DNA from: Planomicrobium sp. YIM 101495
GTDB taxonomy: Bacteria > Bacillota > Bacilli > Bacillales_A > Planococcaceae
Assembly: GCF_009707665.1 (NCBI RefSeq)
Contig: NZ_WLZW01000001.1
Coordinates: 1,798,001-1,862,000, forward strand
Direction: 5' to 3'
Length of the DNA stretch: 64,000 nt
In this document: positions 40,705 to 44,752 of the stretch, in pieces
Numbering within the stretch: position 1 is the first letter of the stretch
How the letters are laid out: each line of letters starts with the position of its first letter
The notes under the pieces: generated by a model
The model's input: the letters and a program-made list of their open reading frames with translations, nothing else
The model's database searches: none
What the model was told of the DNA's origin: nothing
Made by a program: the position numbers and the translations under genes

Positions 40705-41892
40705 TTATTCGTATAGCTCTTCTTCTATCAGCTTGAATCCTTCGATCATCATGTCTTCTTCCACTTCGATCATGATGTAGCGGCGGCCGTTATGATTCAC
40801 TTGCTTGACGTAGCGCAGATCCTGCGGGCTGATCTTGATTTCCGCCACTTTCGTCTCGATTTTGATCGATTTGGACGCGTAATTCGGGACGACGTGCGAA
40901 GCCTTCATTTCGTAGGCGTCATCTTCGGTCACTTGCCGGAACGCGCGCTCCACTTTTTCCGTATTCACTTCTTTGATGCCGCTCGCCTTCAGAACGCGCT
41001 CCATTTCCTTCGTATCGAGGACGGGCGCTTCCATCTCTTCGTCGTCTTCTTCCACGACGAGCATGGCATTGATTTCGTCGTAGACGTTGGCAAGCGTCTT
41101 CGAATTCATTTCTTCGCCGATGACCGCTTTAACGATTTCTTCGAACACCGCTTTATCTTCTTCCGCCGTCATGATCTCATCACCGTTCAGCACGTTCTCG
41201 ATAAACTGGAAATCCGGCTTGTTCACTTTTCCTGCGCTGTATAGGATGTGATGGATGTCTGCCCCGTTATCGCTAAAAGCCGGAAAAAAGAAGCCGCCAA
41301 TCGGTGACGTCAGTTTGATGACCGGATCCGTCATGAGATTCGATTTGAATTCTTTCTCAGTGAAGTCGAATACGAGCGAGCTTTTCGGGAGTTCCGTCTG
41401 GTTCATGCTGCAAAGGATGAAGGGAGTCTTAAATACTTCATCGCGCATGTCGATTTCCGTTTCGTCCGGTGCCCGCTTCGTCGTCTTGAAATAAGTGCCT
41501 TGGATGAATGTGACGACCATGTCTTTTTCATACGGCCGCTCCTCCACCATCTTCAGCGCGATCGCCTGCATATTCGCCTGCCATTCCTCTTTGTCGTCCG
41601 TCTCCAGCCCTTCATACAAGAGGTGCTGCGTATGATCGGCCTGCCCGTCTTCCTGCGGCTGGAATCTCACCTCGAACAGCTTCTGGTCCAGCTTACCGCC
41701 CAGCACTTTCTTGAAGTTATTGAGAAACAGCTCCTGCTGCTCCCGCTCTAATAACGAAAACGACTGGCTCTCCTCGTGGAAGATCTCCGTGCTTTCCTTC
41801 TGAATGTAGACGTTATAAATATCAGCGATTTTCAATAAATCGGTATCCAGCTTGAATCGTTTGCGGATATCCGCGATGTCGTTCTTGTTCAT
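40705..41892 (-). CDS. DUF4317 family protein
   Basis: The 395-residue soluble, highly acidic protein begins NKNDIADIRKRFKLDTDLLKIADIYNVYI and matches the DUF4317 family across its length. Its function is unknown. ATG 41892 lies twelve bases behind AAGGAG, a rather wide spacing. It lies just below the repeat array that follows the DUF559 gene. No transmembrane segment or known catalytic motif is visible. Confidence 0.82.
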   Translation of the reverse strand: MNKNDIADIRKRFKLDTDLLKIADIYNVYIQKESTEIFHEESQSFSLLEREQQELFLNNFKKVLGGKLDQKLFEVRFQPQEDGQADHTQHLLYEGLETDDKEEWQANMQAIALKMVEERPYEKDMVVTFIQGTYFKTTKRAPDETEIDMRDEVFKTPFILCSMNQTELPKSSLVFDFTEKEFKSNLMTDPVIKLTSPIGGFFFPAFSDNGADIHHILYSAGKVNKPDFQFIENVLNGDEIMTAEEDKAVFEEIVKAVIGEEMNSKTLANVYDEINAMLVVEEDDEEMEAPVLDTKEMERVLKASGIKEVNTEKVERAFRQVTEDDAYEMKASHVVPNYASKSIKIETKVAEIKISPQDLRYVKQVNHNGRRYIMIEVEEDMMIEGFKLIEEELYE

Positions 41893-42038
41893 TTGTCGTT
41901 CCAACTCCTTCGGTCGAAAATAAAAAAGAGCAGCCAAAGCTGCTTCAGCTTTTGGTGCTCTTTCATTATAACAAGTTCTTTAGGGGCGAGGGTTGTTCGA
42001 ATAAATCTGAGGATGCGATGGAACGAACCGGCTTGCAA

Positions 42039-42230
42039 AATAACAGGAATTTTTACCGCTATTCTTGCTGAAGAGCCTTCAATGGCTAATATAAGGGTAT
42101 TATTTACCCTTAAACACCGTAATTGGCGATTTTCTAGTGCTTTTTCATTGAATAAAGGTAATTTTTCCTGCTATTTCTTCAGATTTCGGCTCTAACTTCT
42201 AAATAACAGGAAATTTTCCTCTTATTTCGC
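42039..42230. repeat. Four semi-palindromic repeat units after the DUF559 gene
   Basis: Four related units start at about 42039, 42088, 42150 and 42201. The best-preserved, AATAACAGGAAATTTTCC at 42202 and its continuation CTCTTATTTCGC, is an imperfect palindrome of AATAA-AGGAAA / TTTCCT-TTATT. The unit at 42093-42111 is a perfect AAGGGTA-TTATT-TACCCTT hairpin. Units 1 and 3 share AGGAATTTTT.CC.GCTATT and a CTTC-rich tail. The array ends one base before the DUF559 stop codon. Confidence 0.72.
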
Positions 42231-42231
42231 T

Positions 42232-42891
42232 TCAATTGTTTTTCATCTCATGCGGTACCCGATATGAACGGATTCTATTGACTCCAGAAGCGGGAAATAA
42301 CATTTTCTTAGCGACTAATTGACCTAACAACTTTTTTATCGTTTTTTCACTCAAGTTCAAATGTGCTTCAAACTCTTTCGGAAAAATAGGTTCACCCTTT
42401 TGGATAGCGAAGCGCAGCATTTCCTTCTCCGTCAGGGATAAAGTGACTTGACCCAATTCATCCCCCAGACATTTTCCAATCACCTGCTGTACAATCTGTT
42501 GGCATCTGCGGGGACGTTCTTTTACTTGGTCATAAGAAAAGCGCATGACAGTCCACCCATCAATGACCAGCTGATTTTGACGTTCCAGATTATCAGAGAA
42601 ATTCCATCTGCTTATATTCCTTGAGTGTGGCCCGTAACCGTCAATCTCAAAGCAAATTCGGATACCTGGACGAATATAAGCAAAATCCAAGTACCTTTTG
42701 CCATCCTTAAAATCATCGACTTCGTATTCCGGATGGAGATACTGAAAATGACGAAACAGCGGCCACCATATTTGTTTCAAAAACAAAATCTCTGCCTGCT
42801 GATGCCCTTCTTCCAAACGTCTTAGCCTTTCTCCGGTCCTAGTCTGCCGATGCGCGTTTAAAAAAGCCTCATATTCTTTTTCGAATTCCAT
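42232..42891 (-). CDS. DUF559 (VSR-like endonuclease fold) protein with winged-helix C-terminus
   Basis: The 219-residue protein has a PD-(D/E)XK-like core at about residues 60-130: KRYLDFAYIRPGIRICFEIDGYGPH, then RQNQLVIDGWTVMRFSYDQV. The D...E-I-D acids and the QL..DGW strand are those of DUF559/Vsr nucleases. A winged-helix-like C-terminus follows (LTEKEMLRFAI...LNLSEKTIKKLLGQLV). AGAGGGAC precedes the ATG. The gene is AT-richer than its neighbours and lies directly before an array of short palindromic repeats. DNA cleavage or nicking is a family-based guess. Confidence 0.82.
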   Translation of the reverse strand: MEFEKEYEAFLNAHRQTRTGERLRRLEEGHQQAEILFLKQIWWPLFRHFQYLHPEYEVDDFKDGKRYLDFAYIRPGIRICFEIDGYGPHSRNISRWNFSDNLERQNQLVIDGWTVMRFSYDQVKERPRRCQQIVQQVIGKCLGDELGQVTLSLTEKEMLRFAIQKGEPIFPKEFEAHLNLSEKTIKKLLGQLVAKKMLFPASGVNRIRSYRVPHEMKNN

Positions 42892-43121
42892 AGAGTCCCT
42901 CTTTCAAAGAGATTTTTAAAAGTGCGGTTATTAATGCTTGAATAATTTTTATAAAGAGGTGAAAAGCGGATATTCAAAACAAATGGGGATGGTTGCAGAA
43001 GTTTCACTGGAGGATAAGTTTAGATTAACGAATTTTTAGAATTTATCAATTAATATTTTCTTTATAATTGCGATTAGTGAATATGGGTTTTCACCTTTGC
43101 TTATTGTTTTAAGCAAAAATA
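42892..43121. other. AT-rich intergenic region, no gene seen
   Basis: No open frame with a ribosome site or known motif is seen. It is AT-rich and probably holds the DUF559 promoter next to 42891. Confidence 0.6.
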
Positions 43122-43152
43122 AAAAATAGGCGAAGTTTGTTCGCCTATTTTT
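43122..43152. terminator. Terminator after the HIT gene remnant
   Basis: A 13-bp AAAAATAGGCGAA/TTCGCCTATTTTT stem is strong in both directions; it lies 65 bp below the HIT-like gene. Confidence 0.86.
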
Positions 43153-43216
43153 AGTTCAAAAACTTAAAGAATTTTTCATTCCATGCTTACCTCTTTGCTT
43201 CTCTAAAGAGATTTTC

Positions 43217-43576
43217 CTAAAGGTTATGAGTATTACGGAACGTTCTTTTATTTTGTTCTCCTTTAAACAAGTAGCGAATTCCTTTTCCAGCCAATAATTC
43301 ATCTTCATACCTCGGCAACACATGAAAATGTGCATGCGGGATATGCTGTCCTGCAACTTCACCGCAATTCCACCCTAAATTATAGCCGTCCGGTTCGTAA
43401 AGTTTGTCGAGATGCTGTTTAACTGCCTGAAGAAGATCATAAGTCGCGACCCACTCTTCCTGCGTTACATCAAATATTGTTTCTCTATGTATTTTTGGAA
43501 TAATAATTCCTGCTCCTTCTAGCGGGACACCTTTTTCACTGGCTTTTTCAAGCTGCAAAACAGACAAAGTTCATTT
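43217..43576 (-). pseudogene. HIT-family protein gene, 5' end lost and frameshifted
   Basis: The main frame (TTG 43567 onward) holds the HIT core GAGIIIPKIHRETIFDVTQEEW, YNLGWNCGEVAGQHIPHAHFHVLPR with the HxHxH triad, and AGKGIRYLFKGEQNKR. The expected upstream family phrase ENELCLFLQ is seen, but its first half (NELCLF) is in another frame; one missing T near 43558 explains it. The CxxC-type N-terminus before it is absent, replaced by the terminator at 43588-43631. The catalytic part is intact, so a shortened protein from TTG 43567 could still be made. HIT proteins hydrolyse nucleotide phosphoramidates or dinucleoside polyphosphates. Confidence 0.72.
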
Positions 43577-43587
43577 CCTTTAAACGA

Positions 43588-43631
43588 AATCGAAAAATCC
43601 CATGAGATAGTCTCATGGGATTTTTCGATTT
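43588..43631. terminator. 21-bp-stem terminator
   Basis: A perfect inverted repeat, 21-bp arms with a 2-nt loop, ends in TTTTTCGATTT. It lies directly after the deaminase gene on the minus strand. Confidence 0.88.
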
Positions 43632-43636
43632 CAATC

Positions 43637-44119
43637 TCATTGCTTCCTTTCGAACGAACGGATCTGGAGCTTGCGGATCTGTTCCGCCAGTTCCAGGACC
43701 GGCCCTTCCACCTGTGCATCTCTGATGACTTCCCCGATCGGGAGGCTGTAGACAGGACCCGGTTTGGCGCCCAGCTCACTCATCCATCCCGCCAATTGCT
43801 CCGAGGAACTTGCGTAGACGATCTTGCCCAATCCGACTTTCCCATGGGCCGCCGAACACATGGGACAATGTTCGCCGGAAGTATAAACGGTCGCTTTGCT
43901 TCTTTCCTCAGGCGGCATATTGTTCGCTGCCCACCTGGCGATGGCAAATTCGGGGTGCTGCGTGCTGTCGCCACCCCCGTTATGATTATGGTCTTCAAAA
44001 AGTACTTCTCCTGAAGCGGATACCAGGACAGAACCGAACGGCTCATCCCCCTTTTCCAACGCAGTCTCCGCCAATTCCACGCAGCGCCGCAAATGTTTCA
44101 AATCCGTTTCTGTGATCAT
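43637..44119 (-). CDS. Nucleoside/cytidine deaminase family protein
   Basis: The 160-residue zinc deaminase has the first zinc motif as STQHPEFAIARWA (His and catalytic Glu; HPE instead of HAE) and the second as SGEHCPMCSAAHG (two Cys; His replaces the usual Pro before the first Cys). The RCVELAETALEKGDEPFGSVLV start is typical. The substrate may be guanine, cytosine or adenosine-like bases. ATG 44119 lies seven bases behind GGAGGAGG; the longer frame lacks a ribosome site. It follows a decayed NAD(P)-binding gene. Confidence 0.87.
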   Translation of the reverse strand: MITETDLKHLRRCVELAETALEKGDEPFGSVLVSASGEVLFEDHNHNGGGDSTQHPEFAIARWAANNMPPEERSKATVYTSGEHCPMCSAAHGKVGLGKIVYASSSEQLAGWMSELGAKPGPVYSLPIGEVIRDAQVEGPVLELAEQIRKLQIRSFERKQ

Positions 44120-44144
44120 GCTGATTCCTCCTCCTGTTACTGTA

Positions 44145-44752
44145 TTAAGTTGCCAGGCCGATTGAACGGTTTTCGTAGCGCGGGTCGTCCAATGCTTTGA
44201 CGATAAAATGCGCCACATCCGCACGCGGGATGGACATCGATTTCTCCGGCACGCCTTCAGCCGTTTCCCGGTATTTCCCTGTAAATTCGCCGTTCGTCAA
44301 GCCCATCGGCCGGGTGATCGTATAGTTCAGCCCGTGAGACCGGATCTGCTCAACCGCCGCCCCGTGGTCCACCAGCGCGTTTTTCAGCATCGTCATCATC
44401 AACTTCCCGCTGACGCCCGTCAATTCCTGGTGGATGCCGGCAGAAGCCGTGTAGACGATGCGTTTCATGCCGTGTGCTTCCATGCCCGCTATGATATTCT
44501 TCGTCATTTCCTGAAGCTCAGTGGATTTTTTCATCCCTTTATTGGAGCCGAGGCACGACACGACCGCATCTTGGCCGGCAATCGCCGCAGCCACATCCCC
44601 GCGGATTGAACGCGTCTCCCTGCACCACCGTCAAGCTCTCGTGTTCGATCTCCAGCTTTGGTAGTGTCCGCACAAACGCCGTCACCTCATCGCCGCCTGT
44701 CTCACGACTTCCCGGCCGACACCGCCGGTTGCACTGAAATAATAATTTTCAT
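44145..44752 (-). pseudogene. NAD(P)-binding (NmrA/SDR-like) reductase, N-terminal part frameshifted
   Basis: The last 150 codons are intact (AAIAGQDAVVSCLGSNKGMKKSTELQ, GMKRIVYTASAGIHQ, YTITRPMGLTNGEFTGKY, ADVAHFIVKALDDPRYENRSIGLAT). Upstream, ATG 44752 opens MKIII, and the dinucleotide motif SATGGVGREVVRQA appears after a one-base loss. About 15-20 bases seem missing before GDEVTAFVR, and one extra G near 44604 breaks the frame before DVAAAIA. So three lesions disable the cofactor-binding half. The order of pieces is normal for this family, so it is a recently decayed gene. Confidence 0.8.

Follow-up and report, generated by a model that had tools for sequence, protein, structure and literature searches.

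A predicted DUF559-like nuclease gene and its companion four-site palindromic array in Bacilli

Introduction

Pairs of a gene and dispersed palindromes are known mainly from the repetitive extragenic palindromes (REPs) and their partners, the REP-associated tyrosine transposases (RAYTs). In published accounts, these palindromes are described as short, as occurring in high copy number between genes and as having relatives beside a nuclease gene, and gene and repeats are reported to vary together [PMC2817692, PMC3733652, PMC3116915]. RAYTs are characterized there as HUH tyrosine enzymes, with two inverted REPs, mostly tagged by GTAG, flanking the gene [PMC2817692, PMC3733652], and the spread of REP/RAYT pairs is called still poorly understood in another account [PMC8266576]. 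Here, we describe a different gene-repeat pair from Planomicrobium sp. YIM 101495, located in a stretch of 64,000 nucleotides that was analysed as a whole (hereafter the window), in which the gene for a predicted DUF559-like nuclease is followed directly by an array of four palindromic sites. At the level of sequence, comparison across genomes establishes the pairing of gene and array, its persistence across gene neighbourhoods, the presence of dispersed array copies and differences in tandem copy number. We consider it rather probable that the nuclease and the four-site array form one conserved gene-repeat unit, in which the nuclease binds the palindromes and cuts or nicks them, and repair copies the array and sometimes the gene. 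No report of such a nuclease-array pairing was found in the open-access literature (PubMed Central; preprints and subscription papers were outside the scope of this search).

The nuclease and its array

The main features of the locus are as follows (positions are those of the window; ORF, open reading frame).

42232..42891, minus strand: predicted DUF559-like nuclease ORF, 219 amino acids, from the ORF list and its translation
Within 42232..42891, minus strand, N-terminal, ~residues 1-143: predicted PD-(D/E)XK/Vsr-like domain, from structure models and fold matches
Within 42232..42891, minus strand, C-terminal, ~residues 150-213: predicted winged helix, from structure models and fold matches
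42034..42227, minus strand: four-site palindromic array, ~196 bp, directly 3' of the nuclease stop codon; profile match over model positions 2-195, 91.4 bits
42204..42224: unit 1, closest to the nuclease gene, 21-bp core TAACAGGAAATTTTCCTCTTA
42153..42173: unit 2, core TAAAGGTAATTTTTCCTGCTA, 51 bp from unit 1
42092..42112: unit 3, core TAAGGGTATTATTTACCCTTA, 61 bp from unit 2
42041..42061: unit 4, core TAACAGGAATTTTTACCGCTA, 51 bp from unit 3

A preliminary description of this locus had reported four repeat units directly behind the nuclease stop codon in a region richer in AT than its surroundings, and both observations are borne out: the 21-bp cores are spaced by exactly 51, 61 and 51 bp, and the GC content is 0.335 in the array, compared with 0.42 in the nuclease gene and 0.492 in the whole window. 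Two details of that description need revision, as the AGGAA/TTCCT palindrome given for the units is just one of several core variants, with GGTA/TACC also present in the window array, and an alignment of 36 sequences shows no conservation of the CTTC-rich tail. Because the spacing is symmetric, the whole array is self-complementary and profile matches are often obtained on both strands. The 22-bp unit consensus, allowing up to three mismatches, has four matches in the window, all of them at the array and corresponding to three sites, one of which is read on both strands, while 0.07 matches are expected by chance (100 shuffles). A profile trained on the arrays of other species only also finds the window array (E 5.8e-15). 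A chance origin of the repeats is ruled out by the shuffle expectation together with the held-out profile matches.

The protein is predicted to combine a nuclease domain with a winged helix, based on structure models with a mean predicted local distance difference test score (pLDDT) of 84.8 and 87.8. Its modelled fold is that of the DUF559 nucleases, and residues D69, E82, D84, H89, R104, W113 and R117 are invariant in 27 of 27 sequences. Against the Pfam family DUF559 (PF04480), the protein scores 18.6 bits with a gathering cut-off of 20.6, hence just below it. The Pfam matches of five of the nuclease proteins are to DUF559-like nuclease and winged-helix families; none is to a transposase family, in agreement with the fold matches, by which the winged helix resembles MarR- and MecI-type repressors. 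A profile search of solved structures gave no match below E 0.05. Homologues are annotated, where they are named at all, as 'DNA-binding response regulator' or 'very-short-patch-repair endonuclease', and otherwise as hypothetical. The idea of a defence-like unit, also raised in the preliminary description, found no backing, as five proteins gave 0 matches to known defence families in PADLOC.

Pairing of gene and array across relatives

A search of 84,980 species genomes yielded 111 confirmed relatives, and the best 80 of these 111 were kept, giving 81 loci together with the window. An array DNA profile was trained on 33 downstream regions and tested on all 81 loci, 48 of which, the window among them, had been held out. 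The array starts between -10 and +120 bp from the nuclease stop codon in 74 of the 81 loci, and in 41 of the 48 held-out ones. Among the seven misses, the array starts 21-24 bp before the assigned stop codon in three loci and at +175 in one, arrays are found only upstream in another, and the remaining two have no profile match but show similar units by eye. The enrichment was also seen with an independent motif rule for palindromic sites that was not built from the locus alignments and was applied to the loci that were long enough, namely 77 of 80 close and 16 of 19 distant ones. With this rule, there are 2.2 sites per 260 bp behind the nuclease and 0.10 elsewhere in the 77 close loci, a difference of about 20-fold, and the corresponding values for the 16 distant homologues (38-74% identity) are 1.0 and 0.02, with at least one site in eight of the 16 and three sites in three.

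The pairing persists across many gene neighbourhoods. Three ORFs are available on both flanks in 68 of the 80 loci, and these 68 form 28 neighbourhood groups if a single shared gene joins two loci and 49 if two are needed; counted over all 80 loci, including those at contig ends, the numbers are 32 and 58. Inheritance of one locus only is therefore rejected as the source of the pairing, as at least 28 groups are present among 68 loci, and the earlier suggestion that the nuclease is paired with its own repeats stands, given an array at 74 of 81 loci. Protein identity and array identity are correlated (rho 0.57, reached in 0 of 500 permutations, n=70, uncorrected for phylogeny). GGTA-type units were found in two of 20 genomes, G000 and G066, and the gene-linked arrays of both hold such units, a hint that the core type of the units matches the resident nuclease.

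Several individual loci depart from the common arrangement. Behind a homologue of 44% identity (L228:2241-2656), the repeats follow one another in tandem, for the most part regularly, every 52 bp. Genomes G182 and G370 have eight nuclease matches each (8/13 and 8/10 of the scored candidates), representing several distant paralogues or fragments, and loci L223 and L224 from these two genomes show, by eye, units of a different core. In a genome of Rossellomorea vietnamensis (L109:6716-8092), an insert of ~1.37 kb, probably an insertion sequence, interrupts the array downstream of the nuclease gene, with ~8 bp duplicated.

Dispersed arrays and their co-occurrence with the nuclease

The preliminary description had proposed looking for the repeat elsewhere in the genome, and array copies were indeed found in the source genome and in four others. 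In the stretches fetched from the source genome there are 12 further arrays (two of them partial), none adjoining a nuclease gene, and the four other genomes contain 38 arrays in 1.6 Mb and ten in a further 0.4 Mb. Of these 48, 39 lie away from gene loci and nine at gene loci, and at least four are partial. The cores and their spacing are retained in copies away from the nuclease gene. Based on a mechanical ORF finder, 33 of the 38 arrays (gene loci included) are located outside ORFs, compared with 6-11% of random windows. Phage or plasmid cargo was unsupported by the checks made, one of which covered one array only.

Array matches are present in all 28 nuclease-bearing genomes of one set (E <=1e-5), with ten or more in 24; these counts include both strands of the self-complementary array, and 89 or 150 candidates were scored per genome. 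A survey of 348 Bacilli genomes, which may miss arrays as it used seven candidates per genome and stricter filters, found arrays in 19, the nuclease in 39 and both in 14. Hence, the nuclease is present in 14 of 19 array-bearing genomes and in 25 of 329 genomes without arrays (p 3.6e-11, uncorrected for relatedness), and by genus in 8 of 12 and 12 of 122, respectively (p 2e-5). The 25 nuclease-bearing genomes without an array match all carry distant homologues of at most 57% identity, for which the array model is insensitive.

Possible traces of movement

A second array is found upstream of the nuclease in 23 of the 80 loci, in the same orientation in 22 and in the opposite orientation in one, and nine of 22 upstream arrays carry sequence of the nuclease ORF end beyond what is found in shuffles. 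At syntenic loci of related genomes, the number of tandem arrays differs, with one array versus four full plus partial arrays (period 267 bp) in one case and two versus three in another. In Neobacillus sp. OS1-33 (G068), at least 15 bp of the nuclease ORF end is present to the left of 14 of 19 non-gene arrays, and at least 35 bp in nine; the 19 stretches were the best-scoring places, so that copies most like the array of the gene are over-represented, and the count is without a shuffle control. The left and right ends of the array copies in this genome differ from copy to copy. The view that non-gene arrays in general are 5'-truncated copies of the gene unit was rejected, since this pattern was seen in one genome and not in four others.

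Inverted flanks were detected at just one of 55 arrays, and on this ground a transposon with terminal inverted repeats (TIRs) was rejected as the general carrier of the array. That array (G411:C1:339346-339628) lies inside a TIR-flanked insert of ~283 bp, which resembles a miniature inverted-repeat transposable element (MITE) and has ends like GGCTCTGTyAT; a collinear relative, ~88-94% identical where the two can be aligned, lacks the insert. In each of the locus pairs L095/L113 and L150/L163, the nuclease-array unit is bordered by the same two segments, but with their sides exchanged, as though the arrays had served as recombination points.

Promoter-like box and gene neighbourhood

The surroundings of the pair comprise the following features.

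42892..43055, minus strand: leader with promoter-like start TTGATA ... TAATCTAAACT, read from the sequence; a like box is conserved in relatives
40705..43636: insertion context, with DUF4317 gene, array, nuclease and HIT gene, up to the deaminase gene, from congener comparison
40705-41937, minus strand: DUF4317 gene, part of the insertion context
43217-43567, minus strand: HIT gene, part of the insertion context
43637-44224, minus strand: deaminase gene, border of the insertion context

On the minus strand, the TTGATA of the leader starts at 43049, 158 bp upstream of the nuclease start codon. In 72 aligned upstream regions (nine loci with an uncertain start had been excluded beforehand), conservation starts at a similar box, TTGACA...TATTAAACT, and because upstream conservation begins at this promoter-like box, the gene-array unit likely carries its own promoter.

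In the genus of the source genome, the nuclease is present in one of 46 genomes, with 0 of 45 congeners carrying it, and the unit motif has 35 matches in the source genome (both strands) versus at most two in each of the 45 congeners, which is their control level. Around DUF4317, the nuclease is found in 0 of 29 congener loci, and in 11 of these 29 the deaminase gene is located upstream of DUF4317 without the nuclease. The confinement of the unit to one of 46 genomes and the nuclease-free congener loci imply that it was either gained here or lost in all others; gain is simpler, and judging from these comparisons the unit was likely acquired in the lineage of the source genome. The HIT-domain gene at 43217-43567 shares the deaminase-DUF4317 stretch with the nuclease, and no counterpart was found in the 29 congener loci, which extend ~1.5 kb past DUF4317. 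A perfect, terminator-like 13-bp inverted repeat, AAAAATAGGCGAA/TTCGCCTATTTTT, occupies window positions 43122-43152, in the interval from the HIT gene to the leader of the nuclease.

Proposed mechanism and alternative explanations

In the mechanism that we favour, the nuclease would bind the palindromes of the array, where site pairs 51 bp (about five helical turns) apart would match winged helices arranged as a dimer or tetramer, and would cut or nick at the array, on double- or single-stranded DNA. Break repair, instead of a classical transposase reaction, would then place copies of the array elsewhere, in some cases together with the gene; such repair copying is favoured because the copies lack TIRs and have ragged ends in one genome. 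More tentatively, and as a possibility we hold with less confidence, the pair may represent a new class of bacterial mobile element, whose only protein would be a winged-helix nuclease of the Vsr/DUF559 type that cuts at its four-site array or next to it. The cut would lead host break repair to copy the array and carry the gene with it, making the element a homing-like counterpart of REP/RAYT based on an unrelated nuclease. Its range in Bacilli would extend from Neobacillus and Solibacillus to Ammoniphilus and to genomes further removed.

Several observations weigh against this mechanism. A nuclease remnant was present at eight of the 48 arrays in the four other genomes, and seven of these eight are at gene loci. 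No clean empty site free of terminal repeats was found, the sole clean case being the G411 insert with its TIR-like ends, and the dimorphic array sites in a Cytobacillus gottheilii pair are messy. Four same-genome pairs of nucleases with 86-93% identity have arrays that are only 58-80% alike (89% versus 58% in one pair), which weakens simple co-evolution, and G064 and G085, whose gene-linked arrays have GGTA half-sites, gave no GGTA-type units in the test described above. In four of the 28 nuclease-bearing genomes, the number of array matches is just 2-3, which may be hardly more than the array at the gene itself. The preliminary description had named two findings that would speak against a link, and each is seen in part. 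Homologues lacking adjacent repeats are not the rule among close relatives (74 of 81 loci have the array), whereas the most distant homologues are mostly without arrays under the strict motif rule; eight of the 16 distant homologues have no site by this rule, and some of these eight show units by eye. Likewise, repeats without the gene occur in five of the 19 array-bearing genomes, which lack an intact nuclease (a nuclease fossil in one, E 2e-5; a weak match in one, E 0.04; nothing in three), while the other 14 have it.

These five genomes would also fit the view that the array serves to regulate the nuclease gene, with the winged helix binding it to control expression, and that its copies were scattered by other recombination or transposition events unlinked to nuclease activity. 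The resemblance of the winged helix to MarR- and MecI-type repressors and the one array within a TIR-flanked, MITE-like insert point in the same direction. However, the array is 3' of the gene whereas the promoter-like box is on the 5' side (in the window at a distance of 158 bp to the start codon), inverted flanks are found at just one of 55 arrays, and regulation would need no nuclease domain with invariant acidic residues; hence, we consider this explanation unlikely. It also seems improbable that a domesticated nuclease serves the host and not its own spread by acting at arrays that function as chromosomal sites in repair, segregation or self-marking, given that the patchy distribution (39 of 348 genomes, and one of 46 in the genus) and the many gene neighbourhoods are unlike those of a core function and that there is no PADLOC match.

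Alternatively, the array could be an RNA element, such as a structure in the 3' untranslated region of the mRNA or a terminator, that has spread passively. Its position directly 3' of the gene would be in line with this, and single arrays fold better than dinucleotide-shuffled sequences when treated as RNA (mean z -2.8 over 36 arrays, below -2 in 21); the window array, folded as DNA, has a z of -4.2 and a Neobacillus array one of -1.8 versus shuffles. Single arrays must fold better than shuffles because they are palindromic, though, and any palindrome yields such folding, whereas the consensus fold of the 36 arrays is weak (-3.4 kcal/mol, 10 pairs). No Rfam family was above the cut-off in six loci and none matched up to E 1 within the window array, and the cores and spacing are preserved in arrays distant from the gene, all of which makes an RNA element very improbable. 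The copying mechanism set out above remains the one we prefer. If confirmed, it would define a repeat-with-partner-nuclease class of its own, would assign a function to a conserved protein now named variously or hypothetical, and would explain why many Bacilli genomes carry tens of repeats between their genes.

Comparison with known systems

The Vsr-like (EDxHD) homing endonuclease I-Bth0305I is one of the nearest known systems; EDxHD homing endonucleases cut a long site, into which their own gene is then inserted. Among DUF559 proteins (PF04480), NGO0050 (3hrl), which we take to be a member, can serve as an example; the nuclease described here differs in lying below the Pfam cut-off and in having an extra winged helix and an array. 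MITEs are, like the arrays, short, non-coding, intergenic and dispersed, but they have TIRs, whereas inverted flanks are present at only one of 55 arrays here. The likeness to REP-associated transposases that the preliminary description had drawn holds for the palindromes, their copy number and their co-occurrence with the gene, and fails for the enzyme type, the inverted flanks and the GTAG head. As in REP/RAYT systems and their REPINs, the palindromes are intergenic and present in high copy number (with the four low-count genomes among the 28 as exceptions), and the presence of the gene correlates with that of the repeats (14/19 versus 25/329, with five exceptions). In contrast, the REP partner is an IS200/IS605-type HUH tyrosine transposase, while the partner here is predicted to be a nuclease of the PD-(D/E)XK type that carries a winged helix. 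The inverted REPs around the RAYT gene are replaced by a ~196-bp array behind the gene, with a second array nearly always in direct orientation, and instead of a GTAG-type head there is no GTAG beside the units (consensus of 36 arrays, by eye). If a second, unrelated type of enzyme does fill the REP/RAYT role, such pairs would have had at least two origins. By analogy, REP/RAYT is the known system most alike, and the gene-array unit may work in a similar manner, with an unrelated enzyme and a differing arrangement.
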